This document shows positions 23,650 through 57,514 of a DNA stretch of 64,000 nucleotides, in pieces. The stretch is from the NCBI GenBank assembly GCA_963575745.1, contig CAUYUJ010001715.1, positions 17,501 to 81,500 on the forward strand, written 5' to 3'. Both the position numbers and the translations under genes were made by a program. The DNA is from Prorocentrum cordatum. Its lineage: Eukaryota; Sar; Dinophyceae; Prorocentrales; Prorocentraceae. Numbering within the stretch: the stretch's first letter is position 1; each line of letters opens with the position of its first letter. The notes below the pieces were generated by a model. That model saw only the letters and a program-made list of their open reading frames with translations, did not search any database and was not told where the DNA came from.

Positions 23650-24560
23650 CCTCCTCGACCATGGCGCCCCGAGCTGCGGGGTGGCCGCCCGGGTGCCCCA
23701 TGCCGCGAGGGGCTCCTGATGGGGCCCCCTCGTCAGCCGCTCTGCGAAAGATCGCCGGGGCGCCACCCGCGAGCTTCCAGATCTCCTCGCCCCCCAGCTG
23801 CCACGCCCCAGGAAGAGGATCCCGCGCATCATGGACAAGAATACGCTCTCCTGGCTTGGCAGCTACTGCCGCGCTCCTGATGCTCGGCGACGGCCCGTCC
23901 ACCGTGAACACCAGCTCCTTTGCTCCCCCTCCCTTCGGATGCCAGTGGCCACAGGGCCGAGCCCCCTCCGGACCTCCTCGCTTAGGAATGCGCGGGTCGA
24001 GGACCAGCTCGCCGTCGTCGCTGCTCAGCCTGGCGACGCTCGGGCTCGGCCTACCCACGCACGAGCGGATGCTCATGGGCTCAACGCACTCCTGGCCTAT
24101 GCTCGCAGCCTCGCCGCCTCCTCGGACCGCCACGACTACGCGCCGCTGCCTCGCAACAGAGTCGCCGAGCCGGGCGCAGCAGACCTCTACCTCCTCCCAG
24201 CTGTAGCCCGTTCCCTTGAGCCGACGCATCGCCGGGCCCAAATCCGCCGGGCCTGGCGCGTCCGCAACCGCGACCCCCGCTCCTGCCTGGATGACGAACT
24301 CCGACCACCGCCGAGCCCCCCCACCCCCATCGTCGGTCAAGCTGGCGGTCACCACGTCCGCCCCACCAGGGCTTCGAGCGCCCCAGTCGGCAACGCCTGG
24401 TGGCCAAACAATGCGCCCAGCGCCCGGGCCCCCAGGAGCCGCCAACATCCAGACGACTGCACCTCGCCGCGCCCCAGCCTTGCACAGGGCACCTTTTGAC
24501 CCGCGCCACTCGACGAGGGTCACAGCCCTGCCAGGCGCCAGCTGCAGTCCTGGGGCGGTG
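23650..24560 (-). pseudogene. YR-2 methyltransferase-like domain 2
   Basis: Downstream of RNase H the frame reads AMRRLKGTGYSWEEVEVCCA then RLGDSVARQRRVVVAV, which resembles the region of C5-cytosine methyltransferases between motifs VI and VIII (Leu-x-x-x-Gly-Tyr ... Gly-x-x-x-x-Arg-x-Arg). Further on are VDGPSPSIRSAAV (about 23905-23870) and WQLGGEEIWKLAGG (about 23810-23765), like motif IX. Upstream, DVVTASLTDDGGG could be a diverged earlier strand, but motif I and a Pro-Cys motif are not evident. It may supply the target-recognition half missing from domain 1, or be a degenerate second copy. Confidence 0.45.
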
Positions 24561-24649
24561 CGGCTCGCGCCGGGCCGCCGCGAGCTGCTTAGCCACCCTG
24601 GCGCCCGCGTCGCTCTGCCCCTCCCAAACGAGCGCCCGGCGCAGCCAGC

Positions 24650-26300
24650 CGCGCTCGAGATGCTCCGCCCGACTGTCCCGCAGGCTGACGACCACCAGGC
24701 CCCTGGACTCCGCAAGCTCCTTCGCCTCCTCGCTCTCAACCCTGGAGAACGTGTCCGCCGTGACGTTGTGGTAGGCGCGGAAGTAGGCCGTCGCCACCTC
24801 GTAGCCGTGCACCGCCTCGAGGCACGTGACCACCATGATCAGGAAGCTGGCGTAGCGATTATTGGCCCTGCGGTTCTGCAGCCAGCAGTGGACGTTGTAG
24901 TTGTCTCCGCCGTACATCACCACGCCTCTCTCCCACCAGCCCTCCGCGCCTGCCTTGGCTGCGAAAGACACGAGGTTCATGAACTCGGCGATGGCGACGA
25001 TGGCCTCCTCGTCCTCCTCTACGCCGACTGCCTCGCGCAGCGCCTGCATGAACTCGGGCGCTGCATGGAAGGCGCACTTGGAGTTCACCCAGTCGACCGT
25101 GGCGATCCGCTGCGGGGCGGCATCGCCCGTGACCCAGATCACGCGGCAGCGCCAGCCCGGGAGCGCCAACTTCTCGTCGATGGAGAGGATGCCCGGCAAC
25201 GCTCCCGCGAAGCGAGAGCTCCACTTGGCCCGATCCGATGCGAGAACCCGTGCCACCTCGGTAGCCTGCAAAAAACCCACCCACGCCAGGCGGCCATGCT
25301 GGTCGTCCCCCTTGGGTCCGGCCAGCCTCCTCGGGCGACCCCGCATCAGGGCGTCAGTCGCGCTCACGAGGCATCGCCTGGCAGGCATGACGAAGCACCA
25401 GTACTGCCGGTTGCCCCTGTAGACCTCCAGGAAGTTCCAAGGAATATTCTGCTGTCCGTAATCCAGGGCGGGATCCGCTGCCTTCTCGATCTTGGGCTCC
25501 GGCATATCAATCGTGCCCTCCCGGGTACGATACAGGAGGCCCCAGCAGATCTTGGACGTCCCCCAGCCTCCCCCCTCAAGGTCTTTCTCCTTGTTGATCG
25601 CCTCCTCGCCCAAGCATGCCCTGATCCCTTCCAGCGCTACGTCGCCGCTCTGAGCCGCCCGAGTACCGATGTCGGGCTCAACGAGCACCTGGTCGCCCAT
25701 GAGGAAGGAGCTGTGGAACGCGACATCGTCATCCCACCTCGCGTCCGCGGGGCGGTAGGCCGCGTGGTAGCACTTCGCCGCCCACGCCCAGATCATCCAC
25801 TCGCCCGGGCTCCACCTTCCAGGTCCGCCCCAAAGATGCACGCGTCCACCTCGTGCATCACCACCCACCCGAAGGCGCCCTTGACGTCCTTCTTAGCCAA
25901 AACGATGCCAGCCCCCGGCATCCTGGCCTTTCACCAGAGGATGATGCGCGCAAGGTCCGCATGCCTCGGCTGGTCCGCGGGGGGGCGATCCTCCCTGGGG
26001 CAGCTCTGGTTCTGCACAGTACCGTCCCAAATGAGGCGGACCCTGTCGCTCATGGTGCGGTCCGGGTTTTGCTCGAGCACCCTTACCATGGGGGCGCTCA
26101 CCACCTTGCTGAGGAAGTGCTCGTGGAGGTTGGTGCACAGCAGTACCCGGCCCCTGGCCGCATGCTTCCACAGAGCATGCATGACCTCATCGAGGTGATC
26201 CTTCGCGCTGGGGCGCGGCAGCGCCGTCGAAGGCGCGTCGGCACGCCTCAAAACCTCGCCCTCGCCCCCTCCCTGGCCACCTTCCGGGCGTACTCCAACA
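24650..26300 (-). pseudogene. YR-2 reverse transcriptase and RNase H
   Basis: 26251-25931 has VVSAPMVRVLEQNPDRTMSD (RT fingers). After an in-frame UGA comes IVLAKKDVKGAFGWVV (motif A Asp, about 25890). After a shift, EWMIWAWAAKCYHAAYRP and SSFLMGDQVLVEPDIG (about 25670-25715) stand where motif C should be, with Gly-Asp-Gln instead of x-Asp-Asp. NIPWNFLEVYRGNRQYWC is the connection to RNase H. RNase H follows in canonical order: WVTGDAAPQRIATVDW (Asp), AEFMNLVSFA (Glu), MYGGDNYNVHCWLQNR (Asp), RAYHNVTADTFSR (Asp). The element therefore kept a full RNase H, while RT is damaged. Confidence 0.65.
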
Positions 26301-32608: not shown

Positions 32609-32640
32609 ACTGGGCGCCGGCGGTAAACCGTCAACCTTTC
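32609..32640 (+). repeat. Hairpin-repeat left arm (truncated by LINE-A)
   Basis: Starts ACTGGGCGCC, then GGCGGTAAACCGTCAACC. The right arm is missing here because LINE-A begins at this point. On the far side of LINE-A, at about 35277, the flank resumes with GGGGGACTCGTAGAGC. Confidence 0.9.
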
Positions 32641-35276
32641 TTTTTGCGGACTTTGCGGTCGACTGTGCAGGCTTTCCAGCCTAGTCGGAAGCAAGGAGCG
32701 GGCGCATCGGGAGTAGGCGGAAGCCTCACCGATCCAAACGATCAGAGGCGAAAGCCAACTCTTATTAGGAGGATGAGAGGTCAAGCACACACACACGACA
32801 AACGAGGGCATGGCGTGAGTGAGCACAATCAAAATCACATCATATCCTGTCCGAAATACGCTTGTACAACCCGCGGCAAGATCATAATCGTATGCTCAAC
32901 GGCCGAGACCTCGGCATCAGTCACTGTTGAAGTTGGATCAATCGAGAGTGCCGCACTGTACACCTCCGTCCAAATGATCTCATGGCTGAGTGGCTGCCTT
33001 GAGAGTCTCGATACCCTTCCAACATCTATCCAGCACCCGACTCCCACGCCGTCGCAAGAGACACCACCATCGAATCCAGCTCTGATGGCACAAACGCGAA
33101 ACACCTGTTGTAACTGAGGGGCGTGAAGCCCTATCCTATCTCGAATCACTGGTGGCCCGACGCGGGCCGTATGAGTGAGTACATCTGCACGCGTGTTCCA
33201 TTCCCTATATGTGTGGTCAATAATTTCCCTCCCGTGACAGGCAGGCCTAATTCCATATCTTTGACACATGTTGTCGAGTTGGTTTATCATTCTGTTGATC
33301 CTATCCTGATACGTACGATTAAGCACCCTCCAGACACCCTGCAGCCAAGACACCACCAGAAGACTGTCCCCAGAAATATACACAGGGATCCCAAATGAGT
33401 CGAGGTCGTACTCAACCTCCTTCATATTTTGTAACGCAATACGTTTGGCCAGTTTGTCGTTGAACGCCGCAGTGCCCTCTTGGGCCCCATAGGTGTGTAG
33501 GTCGTTTTGTGTGATAGTAAGTACCTCCTGCGGGGCCCCACCTGTTGTACCGTACCCTTTTCTTTTCTGAAAATAACTCAGCATCGTCCGTGTACACATG
33601 TGCTCGCAGAACTGAACATACGCAGCATCTGTCGGCACAAAGGACTCCCACCATTTGAGTCCGTAGAATTCGCAGAAAGAAAATAGCCAGCATCTCTGGC
33701 CGACAGCTCGACCTGAACTAACATGTCTCCTTTTTAGCTGCGAAGCCTCTTGGAAGTGAAACATACCCCGCAAGCACTCAGACGCATCCGTCCTGAGTCT
33801 GTCCCACAATGGGCCATACGCAACCGTAGTCATGTGGTGATCTCTCCACGTACGTTGCGTCGAAGATATTTCCTCATGAGAAGCAGTACACATCATAGAA
33901 ATGAAATCAGCAGCATCCTTCGCGGAGTTCCACACCATACGGAGAAATCTCTGCACCAAACTCGCAAATCCATAAGATCGGAATTGCTCTCTGGCCTCGT
34001 GGTACCGTCGTCGGTTCCAGTCCGCCATAGTCTCCTCCTCTCTCCTCGGCCGTCGAAACATACGGCACAAACACCATCCCTCGAAGGCATTGAGCACGTG
34101 TAGCGAGGAAGCATCCGCAGTACATGTCTCTAGACAATACAACGCCATACTCTGCACCTTGTCTTGATAACGGCAAAACTTATCACGAACAGCTACCGCT
34201 CTGTTACGAAAGAAATTCGACTGTCCAATGAAACAAGCTCGAGCCTCCTTGATGCGATATTCAACATCAGGATGAGCAGGCACTAAGTATGTGGAGAAAA
34301 TCTCATGTCCGAATACTTTCATACTGCCAACACGTCGAAGTCTAAAGCCCTGATATCTCGAGCACGCAGGTATACACAAATCCTCGCTGGTAAGTATATG
34401 TCCGTCACCGTCCACTTTAGCATTCTCCCCACATGTCATGTACAACAGGCTGCTATCCTTCCATCTCATCCCCCAGTCATGTAGTGGTAGTGTTAGATCG
34501 TGCATCATCTGAGCCAACACAGTTGAGGAGGCAGAGACAAGGTAGCAGTTGTCCGCCCACACAAAGTGGTTCACTGTTGTCCGTCGCTCATACTCACCAC
34601 AGACGCCCTCCAGCACATACCCCACACCTCTACTGTCCCAATCCCGAAATATAGGTCCCCACATGGCACATATGATAAGATTAAATAGAAGAGGCCCCTC
34701 AGGGCCGCCCGTCCGTATGCAGACGTCCCAGTTGATGTCGTGAATGGCCATACCCTCGACAACTAACGACCCCGTAGTGCAAACCAGCGGTGATAGCAAA
34801 GCATACTGGAGATAGGCAGGAATATTGGCATGGCACATAGCTCGTTTGGCGTTTAGAAGGCTGCAGTGGTCGAACGCTTGTTTGATATCGGCGTTAGCGA
34901 TATGGACCGTCTGATCTTTTCCCCAGATGTCCCCGTGTTGAGCCAGAGCCTTGAGGGCCCCCACAATTTCCACCGTCTTACGTCCCTCCTGGAAGCCGTA
35001 GATGCCCAGGGGTCCCATGAGGCCAGCCCGAGACACAAATTGTTCGACCAAGATCACCACGCAAGCAGAATACCAACGGCTGAGACTGTTTTGCAGACAG
35101 AGGTACCGCGCATCTGTCAGCGATGTCAAGCTCGGCAGCTTGGGCATGAAGGCGATCAAAATTTGCCTCCAATCCTGCGGATACTGCCGTGCCAAGCGAA
35201 ATATCTCATCAAACATCCGAGCAACGCCACGCAAAGTCGCCCACGGCAATGCCTTGAGGATTTCACAAGGCAGCCT
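32641..35276 (-). mobile_element. LINE-A: 5'-truncated LINE, intact RT-RNase H ORF
   Basis: The minus-strand LINE has lost its endonuclease and starts inside the RT fingers, as usual for incomplete target-primed reverse transcription. Its 3' end runs through about 190 bp of non-coding sequence to an A-rich end beside the hairpin arm. Its 5' end abuts the distal hairpin flank (CGGGGGACTCGTAGAGC). No clear target-site duplication remains; a few bases of the hairpin right arm seem deleted. Confidence 0.85.
32835..35249 (-). CDS. LINE-A RT with circularly permuted RNase H
   Basis: An 804-codon open frame without stops. RT: LTSLTDARYLCLQNSLSRWY (template grip), IANADIKQAFDHC (motif A), IRTGGPEGPLLFNLI (motif B), HFVWADNCYLVS (motif C, Asn in place of the second Asp). 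After a long linker come RNase H motifs in unusual order: YISGDSLLVVSWLQG (D628) and EWNTRADVLTH (D689) first, then RAGFDGGVSCDGVGVGCW (D727) and TVTDAEVSAVEH (E780) at the very C-terminus. In ordinary RNase H the D727/E780 half precedes the D628/D689 half. Start codon unknown because the 5' part is missing. Confidence 0.85.
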   Translation of the reverse strand: MPWATLRGVARMFDEIFRLARQYPQDWRQILIAFMPKLPSLTSLTDARYLCLQNSLSRWYSACVVILVEQFVSRAGLMGPLGIYGFQEGRKTVEIVGALKALAQHGDIWGKDQTVHIANADIKQAFDHCSLLNAKRAMCHANIPAYLQYALLSPLVCTTGSLVVEGMAIHDINWDVCIRTGGPEGPLLFNLIICAMWGPIFRDWDSRGVGYVLEGVCGEYERRTTVNHFVWADNCYLVSASSTVLAQMMHDLTLPLHDWGMRWKDSSLLYMTCGENAKVDGDGHILTSEDLCIPACSRYQGFRLRRVGSMKVFGHEIFSTYLVPAHPDVEYRIKEARACFIGQSNFFRNRAVAVRDKFCRYQDKVQSMALYCLETCTADASSLHVLNAFEGWCLCRMFRRPRREEETMADWNRRRYHEAREQFRSYGFASLVQRFLRMVWNSAKDAADFISMMCTASHEEISSTQRTWRDHHMTTVAYGPLWDRLRTDASECLRGMFHFQEASQLKRRHVSSGRAVGQRCWLFSFCEFYGLKWWESFVPTDAAYVQFCEHMCTRTMLSYFQKRKGYGTTGGAPQEVLTITQNDLHTYGAQEGTAAFNDKLAKRIALQNMKEVEYDLDSFGIPVYISGDSLLVVSWLQGVWRVLNRTYQDRINRMINQLDNMCQRYGIRPACHGREIIDHTYREWNTRADVLTHTARVGPPVIRDRIGLHAPQLQQVFRVCAIRAGFDGGVSCDGVGVGCWIDVGRVSRLSRQPLSHEIIWTEVYSAALSIDPTSTVTDAEVSAVEHTIMILPRVVQAYFGQDMM

Positions 35277-35277
35277 G

Positions 35278-36477
35278 TCGGGGGACTCGTAGAGCTTCCG
35301 CCGGGAGACTCGTAGAGCTTCCTGACAATATATAATGTGGAAAAAATGTTGAGAACGAATGATTTTTCAGCCCAACCGATTTCAGACCTCTTGATGCAAC
35401 AGCCGAACGCCCCCGATGCTTCTGGATTGTCTTCTGTACGAGCTCTGTTAGCCCGAGTAACGCGCGTAAATCGACAGCACCTCTCAAGATAAATCGAACA
35501 ATACGAATAGTTTGGCAAACCTAGCTCGAGTATCAGACCAATTCCAGACCTCTGAATGCGACAGGCGGACGCGTCTGATGTCTCCGAATCGATTCCTGTG
35601 ATTACCAGCCCTGCAGCCCCTCTACAGCCCGAGTTGAGTACAGAAAACCGGCAGCACCTCTCAGGATGACTCGAACAATACGAATAGTTTTGCGGATCTA
35701 ATTCGGGCAGCAGATCGAGCTCCGAGCTCTGGACTCGACAGACGGACGCGCCTGATGTCTTCAAATCATTTCCTATGACTGCCAGCACTGTAGCTCCCCT
35801 GCAGCCCGAGTTGAGTACAGAGACCCGACAGCACCTCTCAAGCCGACTCGAACAATACGAATAGTTTCGCGATTCTAGATCGGGCAGCAGACTGAGTTGA
35901 GAGCTCTGTATTCAACAGACGAACGCGACTGATCATTCTGAATCAGGTTCTGTAAGTATCAGCTCTGTAGCTGTTATATAGCTCGAGTTCAGTACAGAAA
36001 ACCGAGAGCGTCTGTCAAGATGACTCGAATAATACGAATAGGTTTGCGGACCTAGCTCGGCTAGCAGACCGAGTTCAGACCTCTGGATTCAACAGACGAA
36101 CGCGCCTGATGATTCTGAATGGAATAGGTGTGCTTACCCGCTCTGAAGCTGCCCTACAGCTCGAGTTAAGTACAAAATACCGACAACGCATATGAAGATG
36201 ACTCGAAACGGCCGATCCCGCCAGTGTGCTTTTTGGCAGTAAAAGGTACCCGATCGAGCTGAGATCGAGATGGCGAGCGGGAATAAGATGGAATATCACG
36301 GGAAAAAAAAACTAGAGCTCTAACGAATGGTTGAATTTCGAGATCAAAATTTTCAACCGCCCAAAAGTCATCAAAAGGTCTGTCGAGATTTTTCTTGCCA
36401 ACTAGCTCTCCAGCGCGCCGGAATTACTCTTAAGCTTCCAGCAATAACTTGCTAAGGGAAGCTCTACGAGTTACTTG
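35278..36477 (+). repeat. Family A element, full length
   Basis: Begins with a doubled CTCGTAGAGCTTCC terminus and ends GGAAGCTCTACGAG followed by TTACTTG. Inside are diverged tandem units; the conserved (C)RACAG site recurs at 35397, 35559, 35736, 35913 and 36090, a period of 177 bp for the last four. Each unit holds small hairpins such as CTCGG/CCGAG and AGGCG/CGCCT. Confidence 0.85.
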
Positions 36478-37245
36478 AGCACCGCTTCAACCAAGAAGTT
36501 GACCGCTCCATAGAGAACATCCCTCCACCTGGCGCCGCATCCGAGGTCCGCGGCCCGGGGCTCGTCGGGCGCAGGGAGCGCCGCCGTGGCCGGTGGTCCG
36601 GAAGGCGCCGCAACCACTGGAATCCCGTCGCTGCCCCCTCCTCGCAGCTGACTGCGCCGGACGCACCTGGGTCCACTGGCTGCCCGCGCGGTGGAACCTC
36701 ATCATCCTTCTCGCCCGGTCCCGCCTGCTCGTGGCCTCCCTCTTCGGAGCCCGTCACGATGGCGGAAGCGTGAACCGTCGCATACCAGTTAACGCCGAAC
36801 GACACGTCGGGCCATGTAGCCAACGCACCCATGGCCAAGGCCAGGGCGCACTCAAGCCCGTGAACAGGCCTCATGATCCTGCCCACAGCCTGGGTGTCGA
36901 AGCGCGACGACTGCAAGTCCGAAGGGTCGAAACAAGGGGCACGTGTGCCATAGCCCTTGCACAAAAAGGAAGGGAGAGAAGAAGCAGGGGGAGGTGGAGG
37001 AGAAGGAGGAGACGAAGGAGGAGGAGGAGGAGGTGGAGAAGGAGGGGGGAAGAGGAGGCAAGGCATCGCCCTCTGGACCCAGCAACGGGGCCCAAGTCCC
37101 AGGTGGGACGGCGGGAAGGCCGGCGCGCGTCGCGACGCGGAGTAAAGTGGTCGGAGCGGAGGGGGCACAGAGCGGAGGTCCCACTGGGGCGCTGGGGGCG
37201 CGGAGAGGAGGGGGGGCGGTGTGCGCAGGAACGCGGAATAAATGG
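36478..37245. other. GC-rich segment between family A and B copies
   Basis: A unique GC-rich segment, unlike the repeats around it. A minus-strand frame contains GLECALALAMGALATWPDVS and FGVNWYATVHASAIVTGSEE, which could be a membrane helix with a short luminal part, and a purine-rich tract (36985-37050) encoding low complexity. No family recognised. It may be a captured host fragment. Confidence 0.3.
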
Positions 37246-38505: not shown

Positions 38506-39286
38506 TCGCCACGCCCCGACGCCCGCGCCGCAGCGCCGCGCGGCCGCCAGCGCACCCCCAGCCACACGGGGCCGGCCGGGGGGGCGCGCACGGCAGGCGC
38601 GGCGCCTGAGCGGCGCTGGACGCGCTCTCGGGCTTCTGGCACTGGCCGGAGGCTCGGGAGCGCGAACCTCCTCACTCCGGTCCAGTCCTCGGACCGGAGT
38701 TCTCTCTTTCTTGCCTCGCCGCCTCCTTGGAGCTCTATAGCACAGCCGTGCCGGGGTGCTATGGAGACCTTGGAGCACGACATCGGGAGCCGTGCCGGGC
38801 CCTTTGTCGTGTCGGGCAGACCCAATAGCACAGCCGTACTGAGAGGCGCACAATGGACGTCGTGAGTCCTGGGTGTTGGGCGATGCCGGAGGGTTTTGCG
38901 TTGGCTCGCTCCTCTGGCTCGATTCGGGCCACGCAAGTGCGCTTACTGCTTCAGCGATGACGTCGGTTGCTCGTCATTTCGATGGGTCCGCTTTGTGGGA
39001 ATCCACTTGGTGATACTCGTGCTGGTTTCCTAGTTATTTTTGCATTTTAATAACGGCATCCTTTGATTTCACAGCGATCGTGTGTTCTATTGCTTGGCTA
39101 GTATTCGTGCTCGTTTTCGAATTGCTTCTGGATTGTGGTACTGAACTGACATTCTTCGATTTCATATTCGTGCTTGTTTTCCAATTGCTTCTGGATTGTG
39201 GTACTGACATTCTTCGGTTTCACAGCCATCGTGTGTTCTGCTGCTTGGCTATCCGGGTTTTGGACAACAACAGGTAACTCGTAGAG
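38506..39286. other. Unique segment between inverted family A copies
   Basis: The first half is GC-rich without a recognisable gene. The second half (about 39070-39250) is AT-rich and internally duplicated: a block containing GAATTGCTTCTGGATTGTGG-like sequence and another containing ATCGTGTGTTCT each occur twice. It is flanked by family A copies in opposite orientation. Confidence 0.5.
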
Positions 39287-40357
39287 CTTCCCTTAGCAAG
39301 TTGTTGCTGGAAGCTTAAGAGTAATTCCGGGGCGCTGGAGAGCTAGTTGGCAAGAAAAATCTCGACTGACCTTTTGGTGACTTTTGGTCGGTTGAAAATT
39401 ATGTTCTCAAAATTTGAACATTCGTTAGAGCTCTAGTATGTTTTCCCGTGATATTCGATCTTCGTCTCGATCTCAGCTCGATCGGGTACTTTTTACTGCC
39501 AAAAAGCACTGCGGCGGGATCGGCCGTTTCGGGTCATTTTGTCACGCGGTGACGGTTTTCTCAAGATAACTCGAGCTTTAGGACAGCTACAGAGCTGGTA
39601 AGCACAGCAAATCGATTCAGAATGATCAGGCGCGTTCGCCTGTTGAATCCAGAGGTCTGAACTCGGTCTGCTAGCAGAGGTAGGTCCGCAAACCTATTCG
39701 TATTATTCGAGTCATCTTGACAGACGCTCTCGGTTTTCTTTACTTAACTCGAGCTACAGGACAGCTACAGAGCTGATACGTACGGAATCTGATTCAGAAT
39801 TATCAGTGGCAGTTGTCTCTTGAATCCAGAGCTCTGAACTCGGTCTGCTGCCCGATCTAGAATCGCAGAACTATTCGTATTGTTCGAGTCATCTTGAGAG
39901 GTGCTGTCGGTTCTCTGCACTTAACTCGGGCTGTAGGGGGGCTGCATGGCTGGTAATGACAGGAATCGATTCAGAGACATCAGGCGCGTCCGCCTGTCGA
40001 ATCCAGAGCTCCGAACTCTGTCTGCTGCCCGAACTAGGTCCGCGAAACTATTCGTACTGTTCGAGTCATCCTGAGGTGCTGTCGGTTTCCTACACTTAAC
40101 TTGGGCTGTAGGGGGGCTGCAGGGCTGGTAAGCACAGGAATCGGTTCAGAGATATCAGACGCACCCGCCTGTCGCATGCAGAGGTCTGAACTCGGTCTGA
40201 TACTCGAGCTAGGTTTGCCAAACTATTCGTATTGTTCGAGTCATCTTGAGAGGTGCTGTCGATTTACGCACGTAACTCGGGCTGTAGGAGAGCTACAGAG
40301 CTCGTACAGAAGACAATCGAGAGGCATCGGGGGCGTTCGGCTGTTGCATCCGAGAGG
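39277..40357 (-). repeat. Family A element, inverted, left end missing
   Basis: Starts at the right terminus (AACTCGTAGAGCTTCC in this orientation) and runs through about five tandem units. With 37581-38505 it forms a large inverted repeat around the unique centre. Confidence 0.85.
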
Positions 40358-40480
40358 TGACTCGTAGAGCTTCCCTAAGCTAGCAGCTGGAAGCTCAAGA
40401 GTAATTCGGACGCGCTGGAGAGCTAGTTGGCTCGAAAAATCTCGACGGAACTTTTGCTGACTTTTGCTCGGTTGAAAATA
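40358..40480 (-). repeat. Family A right-end fragment, inverted
   Basis: GACTCGTAGAGCTTCC and about 110 bp of the family A right-end region (AGAGCTAGTTGG, GAAAAATCTCGACGG), then truncated at the family B terminus. Confidence 0.75.
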
Positions 40481-40702
40481 CCTCGTAGAGCTCTTCGTTA
40501 TCAATGAGCTAGAGGAATTCCGGCGCGGGGTGGAGCTAGTTGGTCGACCCGACCAGAAAGGACAAAGTGTGACTTTCGGTCGGTTTTGCTCAGATTTGAA
40601 AGATACTCGAGCATTTATTCTCAGGAAGCAGATTTTTACACCGAGCATTGGCATATAAACTTTGTTCCCTGAGCAGCTCAGCTCTCGAGAGCCAGTTTCA
40701 GT
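40481..40702 (-). repeat. Family B element, inverted, truncated
   Basis: Starts TACCTCGTAGAGCTCTTCG with the family B right-end block (GGAATTCCGGCGCGGGGTGG) and ends at the next hairpin. Confidence 0.8.
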
Positions 40703-41690
40703 ACTGGGCGCCGGCGGTAAACCGTCAACCTTGGGAGACTCGTAGAGCTTCCTAGCTCGACTTAAGTTGAGAAAACCGACAGCACCTACCAACATTCCGA
40801 CTCATAGTGAATATTTTTTGACCTCTGAATGCGACAGGCGGACGCGTCTGATGTCTGCGAATCATCTCCATTACCAGCCCTGCAGCCCCCCTACAGCCCG
40901 AGTTAAGTGCAGGAAACCCACAGCACCTCTCAGGATGACTCGAACAATACAGTAGTTTTGCAGACCTAATTCGGGCAGCAGACCGAGTTCAAAGCTCTGG
41001 ATTCGACAGGCGGACGCGCCTGATGTCTTCAAATCGATTCCTGTGACCACCAGCACTGTAGCCCCCCCTCAGCGCGAGTTGAGAGCAGAAAACCGAGAGC
41101 ACTTCTCAAGATGACTCGACCAATACGAATAGTTTCGCGATTCTAGATCGGGCAGCAGACCGAGTTCAGAGCTCTGGATTCGATAGGCAAACGCAACTGA
41201 TGATTCTGAATCGGTTTCTGTAAACATCAGGTCTTTAGCTGTCCTGCAGCTCGAGTTACGTACAGAAAACCGAGAGTTTCTGTCAAGATGACTCGAATAA
41301 TACGAATAGGTTTGCGGACCTAGCTCGGCTAACAGACCGAGTTCAGACCTCTGGATTCAACAGGCGAACGCGCCTAATCATTCTACATCGATTAGCTGTG
41401 CTGACCAGCTCTGTAGCTGTCCTAAAGCTCGAGTTATGTTCAGAAAACCGTCAGCCCGTATCAAGATAACTCGAAACGGCCGATCCCGCCACAGTGCTTT
41501 TCGATAGTATTATTAACCCGATCGAGCTGAAATCAAGATAGCGAGTGGGAATAAGATCGAATATAACGGAAAGAAATACTAGAGCTCTAACGAATGGTCA
41601 AATTTTGAAAACATAATTTTCAACTGAGCAAAAGTCAGCAAAAGTTCCGTCGAGATTTTTCTTGCCAACTAGCTCGCCAGTGCGTCCGCA
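40703..41690 (+). repeat. Hairpin left arm plus family A element
   Basis: The left arm and loop are present, but the right arm is deleted (GTCAACCTTGGGAGACTCGTAG). Family A units follow, then the right-end region up to AGCTCGCCAG. Confidence 0.8.
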
Positions 41691-42375: not shown

Positions 42376-42918
42376 CGACAGGCGAACGCGCCTGATGTCT
42401 TGAAATCGATTCCTCTGACCACCAGCACTGTAGCACCTCTCAGCGCGAGTTGAGTGAAGAAAACCAGAGCACTTCTCAAGATGACTCGACGAATACGAAT
42501 AGTTTCGCGATTCTAGATCGGGCAGCAGACCGAGTTCAGAGCTCTGGATTCGATAGGCAAACGCAACTGATGATTCTGAATCGGTTTCTGTGAATATTAG
42601 CTCTGTGGCTGTCCTACAACTCGAGTTAAGTAGAGAAAATCGATATTTGCTGTCAAGATGACTCGAATAATACGAATAGGTTTGCGGACCTAGCTCGGCT
42701 AGCAGACCGAGTTCAGACCTCTGGATTCAACAGGCGAACGCGCCTAATCATTCTACATCGATTGGCTGTGCTTACCAGCTCTGTAGCTGTCCTAAAGCTC
42801 GAGTTATGAGAAACCTTCAGCGCGTATCAAGATGATTTAAAACAGCTGATCCCGCCACAGTGCTTTTCGATAGTAATGAAAAAAGTTACACAGAAAACAT
42901 AGTTGTTCAGCCCAAGAA
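42376..42918 (+). repeat. Family A internal units
   Basis: About two and a half tandem units without termini. It runs into the next hairpin at 42919. Confidence 0.7.
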
Positions 42919-42950
42919 ACTGGGCGCCAGCGGTAAACCGTCAACCTTTG
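42919..42950 (+). repeat. Hairpin-repeat left arm beside LINE-B
   Basis: ACTGGGCGCCAGCGGTAAAC and loop GTCAACCTTTG, then the LINE-B 3' end. Confidence 0.85.
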
Positions 42951-43025
42951 TTTTTGCGGTTTGCGGTCCGCCACTAGAATCCGAATCCGAATCGGCGGAG
43001 CAGTGCAACTGAGCCCCCCACCATC

Positions 43026-43560
43026 TTAGGTAGGTCGCAGCAGAGCGCACGCCACCTTAGCAGCAGCTCTCGTCAGGGCAGCGCAGGCAGTTAGTTCACA
43101 GCAGGTTACTGTGCTACCAGGAGGCAAGCTCATCGCCTCCTCGGCCACATCGTGCCAATGGAAGCTGTGCGAGCTGGTGCAGGAGGAAGAGGAGGAGGAG
43201 GAGGAGGAGGAGATGGGAAAATCAACCTGCACGCTGGAACCCCTACCTACAACGCCAATCTGAAGCCACCACCCACCTCCACATCCTTCATTACTGACAC
43301 CCCCATCGAATGCACCACGGAGAGCAGTCTTACGAGTACTGAGGAACTTATCATATGCAAACCAGCGAGTAATAGTTTGGCCACCTCTGGCCTCCCACGA
43401 TCCTCCACGGATGCGTCTGATACAATGTCTCTGTTGTCGTAAATATATGAAGTCAGAACACTGATACATGAATTGATAGCAACACGAACAGCACGGCCTG
43501 TAGCTCTCATGGGTCCAGCCAGCGGGGAGCCAAAGGGAGAGCAAGCGGGGAGCAGGGAAG
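43026..43560 (-). pseudogene. LINE-B RNase H C-terminal half
   Basis: Reads RGAFDGGVSNEGCGGGWWLQ and, after a Ser run, STVTCCELTACAALTRAAAK with a stop soon after. These match the FDGG and TVT--E halves at the C-termini of LINE-A and LINE-C. The partner half (GDSLL, RAD) and all of RT are missing, so this is a deletion remnant. Confidence 0.65.
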
Positions 43561-43642
43561 CCCAAGGAGCCAAAGCGAGCCCAGGGGCAGAAACAGCGGG
43601 GGAGAGGAAGGGACAAACACAACAGGATCATGCGTAGTCAAT

Positions 43643-45118: not shown

Positions 45119-45300
45119 CGACAAACGTGTGACTCCCTGACGCCGCAAACAAGTGCAGGCGGCCTGCTTGCCTCGGGAAGCAAACAAATGCCGCAAACAA
45201 GTGCAGGCAGCCGAAGTCGCCGAAGTGGCCCGATCGCCACGCGCCCCCCGCGCGGCGGGCCAGGGGCAGGCTGCCTGACTGCACGATGCAGCTTGAGCCA

Positions 45301-46408
45301 GGGAGCTTCCTGGCACCATATAACGTAGAGCTTCCTGGCACCATATAACGTAGAAAAAAATTACACATAAAATATAGTTTGTCAGCCCAAGCAATTTCAA
45401 ACCTCTCGGATGCAACAGCCGAACGCCCCGATGCTTCTGGATTCTCTTCTGTACGAGCTCTGTAGCTCTCCTACAGCCCGTGTTACGTGCGAAATTCGAC
45501 AGCACCTAGTGTCAGACCGAGTTCAGACCTCTGCATGCGACAGCTGGACGCGTCTGATATCCGCGAATCGACTCCTGTGATTACCAGCCCTGCAGCCCCC
45601 CTACAGCCCGAGTTAAGTGCAGGAAACCAACAGCACCTGTCAGGATGACTCGAACAATACGAATAGTTTCGCGGACCTAGTTCGGGCAGCAGACAGAGTT
45701 CGAAGCTCTGGATTCGAAAGGCGGACGCCTGATGTCTCCGAATCGATTCCAGTGATTACCAGCCATGCAGCTGCCCTACAGCCCGAGTTAAGTGCAGAGA
45801 ACCAACAGCATCTCTCAAGATAACTCGAACAATACGAATAGTTTTTGCGATTCTAGATCGGGCAGCAGACCAAGTTCAGAGCTCTGGAGTCAACAGACAA
45901 GGGCCACTGATGATTCTGAATAGGGTTCTGTACGTATCAGCTCTGTACTGTCCTTTAGCTCGACTTAAGTACAGAAAACCCAGAGCGTCTCAAGATAACT
46001 CGAATAATACGAATAGGTTTGCGAACCTAGCTCGGCTAGCAGACCGAGTTCAGACCTCTGGGGTCAACAGGCGAACGCGCCTGATTATTCTGAATCGATT
46101 AGCTGTGCTTACCAGCTCTGTACCTGTCCTAAAGCTCGAGTTATCTTGAGAAAACCGTCACCGCGTGACAAGCTGACCCGAAACAGCCGATCCCGCCGCA
46201 GTGCTTTTTGGCAGTAAAAGGTACCCGATCGAGCTGAGATCAAGATGGCGAGCGGGAATAAGATCGAACATCACGGGAAAAAATACTAGAGCTCTAACGA
46301 ATGGTTGAATTTCGAGAACCGAATTTTCAACCGACGAAAAGTCATCAAAATGTCCGTCGAGATTTTTCTTGCCAACTAGCTCTCCAGCGCCCCGGAATTA
46401 CTCTTATA
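45301..46408 (+). repeat. Family A element, left end duplicated, right terminus lost
   Basis: AGAGCTTCCTGGCACCATAT occurs twice at the start. Units continue to the right-end block, which is cut at 46408 by the next hairpin. Confidence 0.75.
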
Positions 46409-47525: not shown

Positions 47526-47551
47526 TGGTAGCGTCCACTTGGTAGTGTCCA

Positions 47552-47584
47552 ACTGGGCGCCGGCGGTAAACCGTCAACCTGGTT
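47552..47584 (+). repeat. Hairpin-repeat left arm and LINE-C target-site duplication
   Basis: ACTGGGCGCCGGCGGTAAAC and loop. TCAACCTGGTT at 47574-47584 recurs at 53598-53608 on the other side of LINE-C. Confidence 0.9.
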
Positions 47585-50500
47585 TGTTTGTTTGTTTGGA
47601 CTCGCGTTCCCAGCTGAGTGCATCTGGGCGAGGACCGGTCCCGCAGAAGCACACGGGCAGCGCTGAGCAGCGCTTCGGCTGCCGACAATTCACATTCTGC
47701 GACTGTAGCTCCTTCGAGGAGCCACGCGGCCTCGGCCACATCCCTCCAAACGAGGGGCACGGCACTAGAAACAGCAAACTCATGCCCAGCAGGGAAGGGG
47801 CCCACGGTTCTCGCGGAAGCGATGCCTATCTCACTGGGATTGCACTGAGTATTGATTAAGCCGATCTGAAGCCAGAAACCACATCCTGATCCTTGCTGGT
47901 CAACCCCGCCATCAAAGCCTCCCCTGATAGCGAACGGTAAGAGATAAGTTTCGAATGGATATAGATAACAATGAGTTCTGTAGAATGTGCGGCCACATCT
48001 GGCCTCATGCGTCAATTCATCCGCTCGTGTATTGTCCTCCCTGAATTCGTGTCTCCATATCTCACGTCCCAAGGCAGCAGGCCTCAGATTGAAACACGCA
48101 GCGAGCTCAAAGGTACAATCAATCATGGCAGCTGTCCTCTTGCAGTAGCCACGATTCTCACATCTCCATTTCCCCTGTAGCCAGGAGCAGATAAGTAATG
48201 AGTCACCCTTGAACTCAGCAGCAAAACCCTCTGAGGATATATCCCACACAGTCGCACGTTCCTGGATCATAGCATAACGTATTGCAAGCTTGGCGGACTC
48301 TTTGGGGTCGTACTTGGGGTGCAGAGGGTTGGTCGCGATGTCGACCGCCTCAGCATCGGCCTTCTCTCGAGCCTCAGGGGAGCCTCGAGGTCCATTAGGA
48401 GAGCCCTTCCAAGACACCACAAAGTAATCATAGACCTTAGTTTTGTTGTATTGTGTAAGGAGTTGCTTCCATACCTCCAAGAACTGAACCCAATCGCCCC
48501 GTACAGACTCCCACCACTTTTCCCCAAAGAACTGACTGTAGGGGAACTGCCAAGACCGACCGCCCACAGACACAGGGCCTCCACGAAGCCGCTTGCCCGA
48601 GCTAGATAAGGCCCTGTTGCCATGTTGTCGTAGAACCTCTGTTATTGTGTCGCGAGCCGTGACCCAGCCAACATTGTACATCATAAGCGCACGTCGGGAG
48701 TCTCGAAAGGCCCTCCTCCCCTTTGAGACGGCAAGTGGCTCGTCTCTGAGAGCGTGGGCAGCTCCCTCTCCAGAGGGCATCGGCTGTGAGCGGGCAATGG
48801 AACAGGCGACCTGCGAGCAAAGATCCTCCAGCCGCCTCTCCATATCCGTAATCCTCCCCTCCACCTCCATCACAGTCGCTGCAGGTACATCCTCCCCCCG
48901 TCCATCCGCAAAGCGAACACGTTTAGCACGTTGAGTCGTTGATCCCTCCACCTCAACCTCCGTCCTTGCCGTCCTGTCCTCCTCCAAAGATAGTAAATAT
49001 TGCCTCGTGGAGCGCATCATGCCCCAGCTCTTCCAACACAGCATCTGCACAGCCGACGGGAAACCCCCATCGCAGAAGATTGTCCTGACTCGTGTCAGTG
49101 CAGCTGGCCGCCATACCTCCCACCCCACATCTCCTGGCTTCCTCCTCCCTGACATTCTCAGAAGACACATACCCTCGAACGCATGGATAACCCTCACACA
49201 CTCACTGTCAATCGTGATGACCTCTGCTGCATATAAAAGACGGCTCTGCACAGTCGATTGATATCGACGAAACTTCTTCACCAGAGGCAGCGCCCTGCAC
49301 GTAAAATACTGCACCTGCGCAAAGAATGCCATTCGGGCCTGCTGGACGCGCTCCTGCACATCCGTGTGGATAGAAGTGAAGCTTCTGGGAATCTGATACC
49401 CCAGCACATTCAAACTCTCAACATGCTTGAAAGGAACAATCCGCGAGCCAATCTGAACCGTGACCGTATCAGTGTACTGAGTACCACACACCATCATCTC
49501 TAGACTCTCCTCCTTCCACTCCATCCCTCAATCCCTGAGAGCAGTAGCGAAGGCAGTGGCCGCTACCTGCGCCTCCGATGCTGACTTGGCGGCCAGAAAA
49601 ATATTGTCAGCCCAGAGAGCATGATTCCAACGTGCATACCGACAATGATCATCATGGCATGGCATCTCGACTCCGACACCGCGCTGATCCAGGCGAGCAA
49701 TCACATCACGCCACATAGCAATAGTGACAATAGTAAACGCGATAGGTGATTCGGTACCCCCAGTACGGAGCGACCTATCCCACTGCACATTGGGGATTGT
49801 CACTCCTTCAAACAGCACCGTGCATGAAGTAGATGAGAGAGGCTCCAATAACGCATACTGTAACCGTGCACTGATCCCAAGGGCCGTCATCGCTCTCGAG
49901 ACTGTCGGCAACGTCACAGCATCGAACGCCCGCTCGATGTCACAGCTGAGGAGCCACGCCGTTTGATCTCGCCCCCATGTGGAAGCATGTTGTGCAATAC
50001 ATTTCATGGCCGATGAAATCTCCCAGCAACGTCGTCCGCTGGTAAAACCGTAAACCGCCATATCACTCATGAAGGGTTCCACACATCGTTCCAGTAAAAT
50101 CGTCACACACGTGAGATACCACTTGGCCAAGGTATTTCCGACAAGCAGGTTCCTTGTTTGTCGCAATGTTTCCAGTTTGCTCGTTTTCGGCATAAGTGTT
50201 AGGTATACTTCCTGCCATTCCCTTGGCGTCGGGCGAAGCCCGTTGAATATATCAGAGAAAACCTTACCAATAGAACGCACTGACCTCCACGAAAGAGATT
50301 TGAGAAGTTCAACCGAGATGCCGTCGGGCCCACAGGCCCGTCCTGTTCGGAGCCTGCTCCGAGCCTGCAGAATAGTAGAGTATGTAATCGTAAGTGCGTT
50401 GTCCGAAGAGGTTGTTGATTGAGATGCATGGCGACGCAGTGCGGACACAAGCTCCCGATTGCGGGCTCTGGAGTCATCACAAGTCATACTCTGCACAGCA

Positions 50501-51789
50501 TATCGCTCCACCTCCTCCGCCCACAGTTCCCTGTCCTCCGTCATCATAGTCGTAGGCCCCATATCCCCTCCCCCAGTGTCCGTCACCCTCAACTCCGTCA
50601 CACGTGTCCTCCTCCCCTTCCTAGATGGTAGCGCCTCCCACTCCACCTTCCGTCGGCGATAATCCCGCGCAAGCGGTCTGATGCGACGTCGAAGGTCCCG
50701 AGCCAACGCTCTGTCCTTCCTAGCACGTGCCTCTCTGAGTTGTACCTCCAGCTCGGCATGCTGAGGAGTCCTACTCGGCGGGGGCCCTCGAGAGTACCTG
50801 GGGGCCCTCACCGTGAGGAGCGGTAACGCATGTCCAGCAATCGTTTCAGCAAGACGTTGTGGGGGCACCGTCGGGATCTGGACGTCCGCCAGGACCTGAA
50901 ATTGGGCCTCCTCCCGATACGATTGGAACTCTTTGTGGCTTGTGTGGTGGCTAGGGGGGCCTTGATATTTCGTGACCTGAGGGTTCTGCATATGGAACTC
51001 GGCGTAGACACAGGCATGATCCGAGAAGTTGGTAGTCGGGGTCTCTGGGATCCAATCCGTTCGGCATTCAACCAAGTCACCCTCCCAGGATTGTGGGACC
51101 ATGAGATAGTCAAGCACTTTTGGCGCAATAGTCTTCGCCCCAGACTTGCGTCGAGCATTATTCGCACGATGCACGAAAGTCGGCTGCCGAGAGTACGGCG
51201 AGCCAAGAGAATTGACTGCCAGCAAGCGCATCCGACACAGCCACTCCTGCAGCTGAGATCGCCACATGTCCTCCTCCCACCGTCTATCCTCCGTATCATT
51301 CCCATATCCCCTCCCGTCGAGAATCTGCACAGCACCTCCAGTCACCGTGCCTCCTGAACAGGTGATGTCGGGCGCAAGCTCAACATTAAAATCCCCTGCA
51401 ATCACAAGCTCACATGTGTATCTGCATTCCTCCTTCCACCTCCGATAAGTTGTTTCGATTGTTTTCAGCATCTCAAAAGCCACCTCCAATGAACGATTCT
51501 CCGATCTGTTCGGAAAATACGCAGAGACAAGAAAGATACACGGATGACGCAAGCACACAATAGCAAGACGAGCATGATTACTCCAAGAGCGAACTATGTT
51601 GTGACAAGACTTCCCCCTCAAAGCTATGGAAGCCTTCCTGTCACTTGAATAAACTAGGTGCCAGCCAAGCAGCTGAATTGAATTGGACGGTAAGTGTTCA
51701 CACTCCTGTAAACAGAACACTTCACAGCCGTGAGAAAGAAGTGCCCTCATGCAAGCAAATCCCCGATCTGCTGTAGCCCCTTGTTTCAT
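47560..51789 (-). pseudogene. LINE-C ORF2: APE, RT, permuted RNase H, one UGA
   Basis: APE: FCLQECEHL, VIAGDFNVEL, SDHACVYAEF; the N-terminal strand with Asn (GTQNLMKQG) lies partly upstream of the Met at 51789, so translation probably enters from ORF1. RT: RACGPDGISVELLKSL, LLSCDIERAFDAV (motif A), RTGGTESPIAFTI (motif B), HALWADNIFLAAK (motif C with Asn). UGA at 49530 stands where LINE-A has Trp (HDWGMRWK). Then zinc-free linker, EFKGDSLLICSWLQGKW, EDNTRADELTHEAR, and last RGGFDGGVDQQGSGCGFW and TVAECELSAAEALL: the same permuted RNase H as LINE-A. The frame has no stop before the 3' tail and runs into the hairpin. Apart from the UGA it appears intact. Confidence 0.8.
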
Positions 51790-51793
51790 AAGA

Positions 51794-51858
51794 TTCTGGG
51801 TGCCTAGCCTATGCTGGGCTGTGGGGCCACCAGCCCGACTGGCACCTCTGCACCGTCA
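51794..51858 (-). promoter_or_regulatory. Candidate UGA-CGG stop-codon readthrough signal
   Basis: The ORF1 stop is UGA followed by CGG. Nine bases after the UGA, GGTGCC begins and can pair with GGCACC farther on; inside this lies GGGCTG pairing with CAGCCC. UGA-CGG plus a stem-loop about 8 nt downstream is the known type II readthrough arrangement. No other stop lies between ORF1 and ORF2. Confidence 0.55.
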
Positions 51859-53172
51859 CACCCTGCCGGCAAGACTCGTAACAAATGTGTCGTATGTAGT
51901 CGTCACACCGCTTCGCATAAGTACCCCCTCCCAGATCTCGCGGTCCACTGTCCACCCCGTATTGATACGAAAGGATGCCAGTTCCACGGGTCGATGCTGA
52001 GGGTCCTGCGGCTTGGTCCACATTGTGCTCCGTCCGTTGGGTCCCGATCCTGTCTCCCCCCTGATCTCCATAGCCTCACTGTTGGTACACTCGCGGCATG
52101 CCCCATAGAAGCGTCCCACAGCCCCGATATGATCACGTTTCCAAGGTGGGGCCTCTATGCGTACGCGGACCCGACTGGGTCGTTGTAACATGCCCTGGAA
52201 CATGCTGTCATAATCTGGAGGTGACCTCGAAACCTGGGCCGCACTCCTTTGGGGATTCGGAGTTAAAGCATCATCAAAAGCACGCTTCACGTTGTATAAT
52301 GTCGAAGAGTCGGTTCCTACAATGAATTTGATTTTGATCGTACTCAAAATCATTCTACTTCCATTCATACGTAATGTGCCCTCGTAGTCGATCCTAGCTT
52401 CATCCTCTGCTGCGATAGCCGTCTTCAAATTAGTGATGAATTGTGCAGCGTCCGCGTCTCTCATCATACTGGCCGAACGTGTAACCGCTGTCCCATTCCA
52501 GTCTGTCCAGCCTGTGAGCTCCACATAGCTGGGACTGAAACTGGAGGGCCCTGGGAGTCCTGGTGGGCCCCCTCCGTAGGAAGGTGCCGTAGTCGAGGCT
52601 GCACCTGATATCACACAGGGGTTCTTCTTGAGATCCTGCATCTGTCGTTCCAAGTTGTTCATCCTGATGTCGGAGGCCTCCTGACGATTCGAGATGCTCT
52701 GAATATCGGCCCTGATTTCGACGTTTTCTTGTTGCCTAACTTTGCTCTCAAGCACGTTGAGCTCCGCGAAGGCCTTGAACCAGGATGGGGCCTCGTCCGA
52801 GACCACACTGAGTTTCTTTCGCTTCTCCTCGAGTTCTCCCAAGAGTGCCTCGTGAGGACCGTTGACACGATGTTTGACATTTCGTTGGGCGTCGTCGCTA
52901 ACACCCTGCATACCCTGACGCTCCCCAGCACCTTCAGGGACAACAGCCGCTTGGGCCGCCGCCTGTTGTGCCTCCGTGGGCATACCTGGGGGTCCCCCTA
53001 GAGCACCTTGTGGAGCTGGGCCTCTAGGAACAACAGGAGCGCCTCCAGATCCTTGACCTCCAGGACTGACCTGACCTACTGGAACCCCTCCCGCACGCCC
53101 TCCGTTGGTTGTAGCTCCCGCCACAGCTGCGTTGGAAGGAGTCTGCATCATATTCATGAGTCCTGTATTCAT
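51856..53172 (-). CDS. LINE-C ORF1 protein
   Basis: The first Met in the element is at 53172, although the frame is open upstream into the flank. The N-terminal half is Gly/Pro/Gln-rich. It is followed by a coiled-coil-like stretch (ALLGELEEKRKKLSVVSDEA ... NVLESKVRQQENVEIRADIQ ... DIRMNNLERQMQDLKKNP) and then a folded C-terminal domain (AAQFITNLKTAIAAEDEARI, KIKFIVGTDSSTLYNVKRAF, RVRVRIEAPPWKRDHIGAVG). Coiled coil plus an alpha/beta domain resembles LINE ORF1 chaperone proteins that bind the element RNA, though no RRM signature is certain. It ends GRV-UGA, with ORF2 in the same frame. Confidence 0.75.
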   Translation of the reverse strand: MNTGLMNMMQTPSNAAVAGATTNGGRAGGVPVGQVSPGGQGSGGAPVVPRGPAPQGALGGPPGMPTEAQQAAAQAAVVPEGAGERQGMQGVSDDAQRNVKHRVNGPHEALLGELEEKRKKLSVVSDEAPSWFKAFAELNVLESKVRQQENVEIRADIQSISNRQEASDIRMNNLERQMQDLKKNPCVISGAASTTAPSYGGGPPGLPGPSSFSPSYVELTGWTDWNGTAVTRSASMMRDADAAQFITNLKTAIAAEDEARIDYEGTLRMNGSRMILSTIKIKFIVGTDSSTLYNVKRAFDDALTPNPQRSAAQVSRSPPDYDSMFQGMLQRPSRVRVRIEAPPWKRDHIGAVGRFYGACRECTNSEAMEIRGETGSGPNGRSTMWTKPQDPQHRPVELASFRINTGWTVDREIWEGVLMRSGVTTTYDTFVTSLAGRV

Positions 53173-53597
53173 ATTCACAAATGAAGGTGGGACAACACAA
53201 TGGCTATCACTATCTGGTGTGGAGTCGGCAGTATTCAATCTCCCGTCCAATGGAAGGTCACGTACAATCTGCTCGGTATCCTGAATTTGCCTCTTCCGAG
53301 ATGCCCTCTCAACAGCAGAATCTGGTCTCTGTCCGTAATCCTGTGAGTACTGCAAATATGGTACAGTCGGGGAAATATCCTCCAGCTGGAAGCGTCTCGC
53401 AAGCACTGAAAAGTCGTACCCGTCCGTCTTTGCACACACGACAAACAAAACAACAATTACAGCACTGCTTGCCTGGAAGATGCCGTACTCGTCGATGGCA
53501 GCGATGGCCGCCGCGCCGCTTCCCCGCGGCGCCGACACCCCCTGAGCTCCTGTGGGATCCAGGAGCCCTAGAGCCGAGATGTCTTGAGCCGATGTCT

Positions 53598-55935: not shown

Positions 55936-55941
55936 TCGCCA

Positions 55942-55963
55942 ACTGGGCGCCGGCCGTCAACCT
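55942..55963 (+). repeat. Hairpin left arm, partly deleted, beside LINE-D
   Basis: ACTGGGCGCCGGCCGTCAAC: the GGTAAAC part is deleted. The LINE-D tail follows. Confidence 0.8.
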
Positions 55964-56332
55964 TTGTTTGTTTGTTTGGACTCGCGTTCCCAGCTGAGTG
56001 CAGCTGGGCGAGGACCGGTCCCGCAGAAGCACACGGGCAGCGCTAAGCAGCGCTTCGGCTGCCGACAATTCACATTCTGTGACTGTAGCTCCTTCGAGGA
56101 GCCACGCGGCCTCGGCCACATCCCTCCAAACGAGGGGCACGGCACTAGAAACAGCAAACTCATGCCCAGCAGGGAAGGGGCCCACGGTTCTCGCGGAAGC
56201 GATGCCTATCTCACTGGGATTGCACTGAGTATTGATTAAGCCGATCTGAAGCCAGAAACCACATCCTGATCCTTGCTGGTCAACCCCGCCATCAAAGCCT
56301 CCCCTGATAGCGAACGGTACGAGATAAGCCTC
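55964..56332 (-). mobile_element. LINE-D: 5'-truncated copy of LINE-C 3' end
   Basis: About 365 bp nearly identical to 47583-47944, with the same (CAAA)n tail. Target-site duplication CCTTTGTT flanks it, and the right flank is the distal hairpin arm (TTACCGCCGGGGAACTCGTAG). Confidence 0.9.
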
Positions 56333-57352: not shown

Positions 57353-57365
57353 TCCACCTGTCGCG

Positions 57366-57514
57366 AATGGCGCCGGCGCTGAACCGTCAACCTGGTCAGC
57401 GCCGGGAACCTCGCACAGCTTCTTTCACGCGTAAGAGAGCTCAGAGTCGAAAGAGAGAGTTTCTGGAAGCATTTCTCGAAAAAAATTAAATTATGTTTTT
57501 CGTGTCGACATAAA
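57366..57514 (+). repeat. Variant hairpin plus family B left end
   Basis: Hairpin arms GGCGCTGA/TCAGCGCC, a variant with a complementary change in both arms. It is followed by CTCGCACAGCTTC (diverged terminus) and a truncated body. Confidence 0.85.

Follow-up and report, generated by a model that had tools for sequence, protein, structure and literature searches.

RNase H domains clear RNA from the cDNA hybrid, and those of ordinary long interspersed nuclear elements (LINEs) are thought to do likewise. Among elements lacking long terminal repeats (non-LTR elements), the I group, Dualen/RandI, Proto1 and oomycete Utopia carry an RNase H of their own, with active-site residues in D-E-D-H/R-D order in the available passages of PMC4640811, where 'permut' has 0 occurrences; Utopia is target-specific, and its archaeal-like RNase H, with Arg, lies upstream of the reverse transcriptase (RT). 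Plant Ta11 L1 and oomycete L1 elements bear an archaeal-type RNase H (aRNH) with a D-E-D-R-D set at the C terminus of the second open reading frame (ORF2); in the available part of PMC5348765 the alignment runs in D-E-D-R/H-D order and the main text is without 'permut'. Arg in place of His marks the archaeal type (passages of PMC5348765 and PMC4640811). SymbioLINE-Dnmt of Symbiodinium, which we liken to the present elements by description only, has an endonuclease and RT, target-site duplications and no poly-A tail; passages of PMC5890265 ascribe no RNase H to this LINE, one legend for LINE and DIRS elements naming RNase_H without assignment and another linking RNase_H to DIRS Pol. The RT thumb of LTR elements has been called permuted relative to other RTs (a passage of PMC10830420), a different feature. 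Here we analyse a 64,000-nucleotide stretch of the Prorocentrum cordatum genome (contig CAUYUJ010001715.1, positions 17,501 to 81,500; hereafter the window) that holds copies of three LINE families, LINE-A, LINE-B and LINE-C. Probably the C terminus of ORF2 in these site-specific LINEs is an archaeal-type RNase HI in circularly permuted form, its fold and activity being what we infer from sequence.

Motif order in three LINE families

The initial annotation of the window had read, at the end of LINE-A, the series GDSLL (D628), NTRAD (D689), FDGG (D727) and TVTDAE (E780), and the same order in LINE-C (GDSLL, NTRAD, FDGG, TVAECE). This observation is confirmed. The LINE-A ORF (804 amino acids (aa), 32835-35249, minus strand) carries these residues with exactly this numbering, and the LINE-C codons start at 48202, 48019, 47911 and 47689. 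The range quoted for the domain, 32835-33300, needs correction: it omits the GDSLL codons, and the domain occupies about 32838-33455. LINE-A comprises the following features, in which the five single residues are each kept in 30/30 fetched genome copies.

32640..35278, minus strand: LINE-A copy, 5′-truncated relative to full copies (junctions by eye; RVT_1 E = 5.2e-7; near-identical genome copies have a 1323-aa open frame)
32838..33455, minus strand: C-terminal region of LINE-A, 206 aa, the putative permuted RNase H
33156..33419, minus strand: first half, predicted RNase H β4 to helix E (GDSLL ... REWNTRAD; C-half hidden Markov model (HMM), HHalign, NCBIfam and PDB matches)
32853..33092, minus strand: second half, putative RNase H β1 to helix A (FDGG ... 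TVTDAEVSA; block test and rotation scan; weak alone)
33366..33368, minus strand: D628, expected catalytic Asp of β4
33204..33206, minus strand: R682, archaeal-type active-site Arg
33183..33185, minus strand: D689, expected catalytic Asp of helix E
33069..33071, minus strand: D727, expected catalytic Asp of β1
32910..32912, minus strand: E780, expected catalytic Glu of helix A

The other LINE copies of the window contribute these features.

47583..53597, minus strand: LINE-C, probably near full length, ~6.0 kb, with a (CAAA)n 3′ end (boundaries counted by eye)
47992..48252, minus strand: LINE-C first half of the putative permuted domain (GDSLL ... REDNTRAD; C-half HMM 16.3 bits versus a shuffle maximum of 6.0)
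47629..47934, minus strand: LINE-C second half (FDGG ... TVAECELSA)
43029..43325, minus strand: LINE-B of the window, second half only, in an internally deleted copy
55939..56328, minus strand: 5′-truncated LINE-C copy that begins just ahead of the second half and holds the second half only (96.5% identical to LINE-C)

The motif order is more than chance, because the ORF of LINE-A is 36% identical to the downstream ORF of LINE-C, with both halves conserved. The expression [FYVIL]DG[GAS]-x(30,75)-T-x4-E-x2-A, composed post hoc, occurs in 25 (LINE-A), 56 (LINE-C) and 43 (LINE-B) of 200,000 shuffles of the second half. LINE-B had been described as keeping the last half only, which holds for the window copy (FDGG, TVTCCE) and fails for the family: three of the five loci fetched from this genome (L132, L133 and L134) have both halves, the window copy and L131 being internally deleted. 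The window LINE-B (43026-45505) has a 620-aa ORF and then just the last half of the RNase H.

The three domains are 33-38% identical to one another. Within the stretch that begins some 30 residues ahead of GDS and runs to the C terminus, only five acidic residues are invariant across LINE-A, LINE-B and LINE-C: the Asp of GDS, the Glu of RE, the Asp of RAD, the Asp of FDGG and the final Glu of TV..E. Four of these are the expected catalytic carboxylates and the fifth is the Glu adjoining the archaeal-type Arg, so that the expected active-site set D, E, D, D would stand at the motif positions in all three families. That the domain appears to be archaeal-type had gone unseen in the initial annotation; it is indicated because an Arg of the R682 type, within RE-x-N-x-RAD of all three families, replaces the His before the last Asp.

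The first half and RNase HI

For comparison we used an RNase HI profile of 14 sequences (12 of the 32 plasmid records listed plus two viral contigs), mostly archaeal-type, with two members carrying the E. coli-type insert. The first half aligns to positions 61-123 of this profile. An HMM of the C-terminal half (C-half) of the profile scores 18.1 bits in LINE-A (shuffle maximum 5.2) and, as listed above, 16.3 in LINE-C, values reached by 0/1000 shuffles and 0/276 natural windows. HHalign of the three-family first half against the mostly archaeal-type RNase HI alignment gives 96.5% probability and E 8e-10 at template 63-125 (0/200 shuffles).

A three-family profile search of 177,635 distinct PDB sequences returned five at E ≤ 10, all of them RNases H (best E 0.0051): 3u3g and 4h8k (ribonuclease H), 2ehg (ribonuclease HI), 4e19 (ribonuclease H1/HI) and 3aly, whose deposited name is uncharacterised protein ST0753 and which a passage of PMC5348765 calls S. 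tokodaii aRNH. Only 3u3g and 4h8k have E < 0.1. Every match starts at chain residue 69 or later, and the N-terminal part is matched in none. Two-family profiles each found three sequences, 3u3g, 4h8k and 3fi7, the last not an RNase H. In NCBIfam, LINE-A matched PRK07708 (hypothetical protein, E 6e-4) and two RNase HI models in their later part, and LINE-B matched PRK07238 (RNase H/acid phosphatase, E 3.6e-4, 66-139 of 378), two RNase HI models and PRK07708, all far under the curated cut-offs. An E. coli-type RNase H profile gave weak matches, chiefly in the first half. Together, the profile comparisons show the first half to be homologous to the C-terminal part of archaeal-type RNase HI, β4 to helix E.

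The second half and the absent N-terminal part

The second half most likely represents the missing N-terminal half of RNase HI, β1 to helix A. Chained β1, β2 and helix A blocks score 18.9 on the three-family profile, a value reached by 0/5000 column shuffles (maximum 14.0), although the β1 and β2 blocks were split post hoc, the shorter turn of these domains having already been noticed, which makes the shuffle count optimistic. The first half scores 3.9 on the same N-half blocks (678/5000 shuffles). Consistent spacing is seen at helix A, where T-x4-E-x2-A is spaced in the second half as in the aligned RNase HI profile sequences.

Several results weigh against this assignment, and against reading the whole as a rearranged RNase H. 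An N-half HMM run on the second half alone is reached by 78 (LINE-A), 716 (LINE-B) and 3 (LINE-C) of 1000 shuffles. HHalign scores the second half at 15.3 with a probability of 1% (3/200 shuffles), with a correct register that places helix A at template 40-58 and β1 at 10-22 of the E. coli-type profile. An initial test with two blocks gave uneven results (LINE-A 69, LINE-B 2 and LINE-C 1 of 1000 shuffles), with block 1 misplaced in LINE-C; the three-family first half reaches 4.0 on the N-half blocks (35/1000 shuffles); and β3 has no match in the second half. No Pfam RNase H model rises above its cut-off for LINE-A, LINE-B or LINE-C in native or un-permuted order, LINE-B giving RVT_3 at E 0.1 only, and no NCBIfam family was found for LINE-C. 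Searched against PDB sequences, un-permuted LINE-A has a single match, 2iec (E 0.62), by name no RNase H.

Structure prediction adds to these points. AlphaFold2 models built from two alignments of four window sequences, of which the LINE-B full domain was not part, are of low confidence (mean predicted local distance difference test (pLDDT) 37.9 and 42.2). In the second, a strand, helices, another strand and a helix are followed by a hairpin of two strands and by helices, an order compatible with a permuted topology minus β3 at a confidence too low to count. No RNase H stands among the first 50 Foldseek and first 50 VIA rows for the better model; HpaA, PelC and ProRS, which do appear there, are meaningless at such a pLDDT.

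These results bear on a reading in which an RNase H, truncated and decayed, makes up the first half, whereas the FDGG/TV..E segment is unrelated and resembles β1 and helix A by chance. Such a reading gains from the insignificant scores that plain HMM searches give the second half in LINE-A and LINE-B, from the absence of a Pfam match and from the low-confidence models. It is hard to square with the block test, in which 0/5000 shuffles reached the score, with an Asp and a Glu as the only acids of the second half that never vary among the three families, and with a T-x4-E-x2-A spacing equal to that of RNase HI, both residues being kept in 30/30 fetched copies. We regard chance likeness as improbable.

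Permutation tests and controls

With five blocks in ordinary order, the rotated three-family profile scores 0.1 in native order and at best 54.9, at rotations 97-123; the junction of the halves lies at column 119 of 218, inside this peak. Each family behaves likewise, the score rising from 1.1 to 49.2 in LINE-A, from 1.5 to 58.4 in LINE-B and from 5.0 to 57.0 in LINE-C. The ordinary order, β1 to helix E, is thus not that of the LINE domain, and we term it a permuted variant because the rotation peak falls at the junction instead of at native order. As controls we took E. coli RNase HI and seven members of the 14-sequence profile, dropping each from the profile for its own test and rotating by 3 at a time: six of these eight ordinary RNases HI peak with rotation 0 included, and the other two peak at 3 (L086) and at 3-6 (L097). 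When 315 segments from all six frames were scanned for the permuted order, LINE-C (57.0) and LINE-A (49.2) came out on top, followed by a next score of 21.5.

A canonical RNase H in the same window, YR-2 (24081-25892), had been proposed as a control. Its acids do stand in ordinary order by eye, and its rotation scan is best at 9.2 with rotation 0 included. It is a weak control all the same, because Pfam finds 0 families in it and RNase HI profiles hardly recognise it (profile score 0.3 bits; C-half reached by 46/1000 and N-half by 72/1000 shuffles). By eye, 24081-25892 and 19916-20947 look like possible pieces of a tyrosine-recombinase (DIRS-like) retroelement.

The profiles, the block test and the rotation scan all support what had been suggested from the motifs, that the halves of an RNase H were swapped by a cut after helix A with all four carboxylates kept. 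The chain would run β4, helices, β5 and helix E, then a linker of ~20 residues, then β1, β2 (possibly β3) and helix A. A cut in the loop between helix A and β4 would have made the new ends, and the linker would join the old N and C termini. The active-site residues D-E-D-R-D would then all be present, in the chain order D-R-D-D-E. Such an arrangement may have had a simple origin, in which the domain was duplicated in tandem and its outer halves were then lost.

The same features could be produced by a domain swap, in which the halves pair across two ORF2 molecules and the second half completes the active site of its neighbour. That proposal draws on the same sequence evidence and on the shortness of the linker; a linker of ~20 residues should nevertheless permit pairing inside one chain, and nothing indicates a dimer. 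We consider a swap very improbable, and a functional circular permutation, with the fold and activity expected of it, probable.

The region upstream of the domain

The initial annotation had pointed out that a complete ordinary RNase H upstream might explain both pieces. None was found, and such a domain appears not to be there: on the N-half blocks, where the second half reaches 18.9, the 347-column upstream profile built from all three families scores 3.0, and it contains no Asp invariant across them. Correspondingly, 68 windows of the LINE-A/LINE-C upstream alignment reach at most 7.0 versus 20.6 for the second half of the same two families, and the last 250 residues upstream in LINE-B score 8.2 versus 15.3 for its own second half.

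The region does hold a point against a simple permutation. Three Glu residues are invariant upstream, one of them 37 (LINE-A), 38 (LINE-B) or 32 (LINE-C) residues before the GDS Asp, and in LINE-A this Glu sits within T-x4-E-x2-A, a motif absent there in LINE-B and LINE-C. In the ordinary RNases HI of the profile the Glu-to-Asp distance is about 22 (by eye). The upstream piece may be a relic of an old helix A. On that basis the elements could be duplication remnants, with a decayed ordinary N-half upstream (the Glu helix with its K/R-rich face being the old helix A) and the C-terminal half an added copy. Besides the conserved Glu and its motif in LINE-A, chaining in canonical order picks up weak upstream pieces (LINE-A 40.2, its first half alone 31.3; LINE-C 37.0, its first half alone 33.7). 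The upstream profile tells against it through its low block score and missing Asp, as do the lack of the T-x4-E-x2-A motif upstream in LINE-B and LINE-C and the finding of DG[GAS] upstream in LINE-C alone, LINE-A and LINE-B differing there; functionally, moreover, the domain would still be permuted. A duplication remnant seems to us rather unlikely, and circular permutation stays the preferred reading.

Conservation among genome copies

We searched the genome (4.13 Gb, 21,875 contigs) for further copies, first-look candidates without a score not counting as verified. LINE-A has 56 scored matches of 8,411 first-look candidates, many with the 1323-aa open frame; LINE-C has 66 of 7,049, of which 33 have an open frame of at least 1400 aa; and the LINE-B half has 150 of 27,857. 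The LINE-A copies compared were the best 30 of the 56 scored matches, window copy included. All 30 retain D628, R682, D689, D727 and E780, have no internal stop and end in TGA. Synonymous and nonsynonymous variant codons among them number 10/6 in the first half, 8/6 in the second and 110/54 in residues 1-598, giving nonsynonymous/synonymous per-site ratios of 0.17, 0.23 and 0.14 for young copies and small counts. Between families, the codon test left the synonymous divergence (dS) undefined or >1. The viral contigs scanned held 0 relatives, and three pattern matches in genome contigs were set aside as chance by tblastn.

Insertion sites of the LINEs

RVT_1 lies above its curated cut-off in LINE-A (E 5.2e-7) and LINE-C (E 2e-9). 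For an APE-type endonuclease ahead of the RT, LINE-C gives a sub-threshold Exo_endo_phos match (E 0.015, 15.5 bits versus a cut-off of 24.5), with GDFN and SDH motifs by eye. Within the LINE-C RT an in-frame TGA stands at 49528-49530, where LINE-A has the Trp of HDWGMRWK. Hallmarks of LINEs besides the RT are the 5′-truncated copies (55939-56328 and 32640-35278), the LINE-C target duplication (CCAGGTTGA-type, read by eye, on its flanks) and a fixed 3′ end.

That 3′ end adjoins, in all four LINE copies of the window, the right half of a single palindrome, GGAAGCTCTACGAGTCCCCCGGCGGTAACAAAGGTTGACGGTTTACCGCCGGCGCCC, which is shorter in the copy near 56 kb; the left half can be made out at the 5′ end of LINE-A, LINE-C and the 56-kb copy, so that the body of the LINE-A copy sits between two halves of its own target motif. 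The 3′ junctions are at 32609-32660, 42918-42968, 47551-47589 and about 55939-55965, and empty palindromic sites occur, for example, near 46408-46468, 58019-58078 and 61535-61594. In 28/30 fetched LINE-A loci the right half of the motif lies 192-203 nt past the stop, a common 3′ junction. LINE-A, LINE-B and LINE-C look target-specific.

An artefact, by misassembly or by the joining of two elements, might be suspected in so repeat-rich a region. It is already refuted because separate copies share the order, which is identical in three diverged families and in 30/30 fetched LINE-A loci, and one target motif defines the 3′ ends of the elements; we give it next to no credence.

A satellite-like repeat with a period of ~177 bp, estimated by eye from match offsets, takes up much of the sequence at 35380-36480, 39270-41680, 45500-47500 and 56900-62960, and often terminates at the palindromic LINE target motif.

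Comparison with known RNases H and implications

The nearest known counterparts of the domain, archaeal-type RNases HI (S. tokodaii 2ehg and 3aly; PDB 3u3g), share with it the GDS of β4, Arg for His, the R-x-x-N-x-x-AD of helix E, the FDG of β1 and the T-x4-E-x2-A of helix A. The LINE domain differs in its swapped halves, in a shorter β1-β2 turn, in a divergence too great for Pfam cut-offs and, in LINE-B and LINE-C, in a long insert ahead of helix A. No permuted RNase H in a LINE was recognised among the papers listed by full-text searches of literature under Creative Commons (CC) licences, with subscription papers and Repbase outside the search and novelty therefore provisional. As far as those searches go, and if the reading is true, these would be the first retroelements with a permuted RNase H.

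The domain most likely digests the RNA of the RNA:cDNA hybrid that target-primed reverse transcription produces. On balance it is likely that an old site-specific LINE lineage, present in abundance in a 4-Gb genome, replicates using a natural permuted, catalytically complete RNase H behind its RT. If so, the end of helix A is the C terminus of ORF2, and the geometry in which the nuclease meets the hybrid may differ from that of known RT-RNase H enzymes. RNase H is among the most studied of folds and has been acquired repeatedly by retroelements; a natural permutant retained by three LINE families would demonstrate that this fold can be re-threaded while its active site stays intact. Permutation would also explain why standard domain searches miss the RNase H of these LINEs, and would suggest re-examining elements thought to be RNase H-less with permutation-aware profiles.

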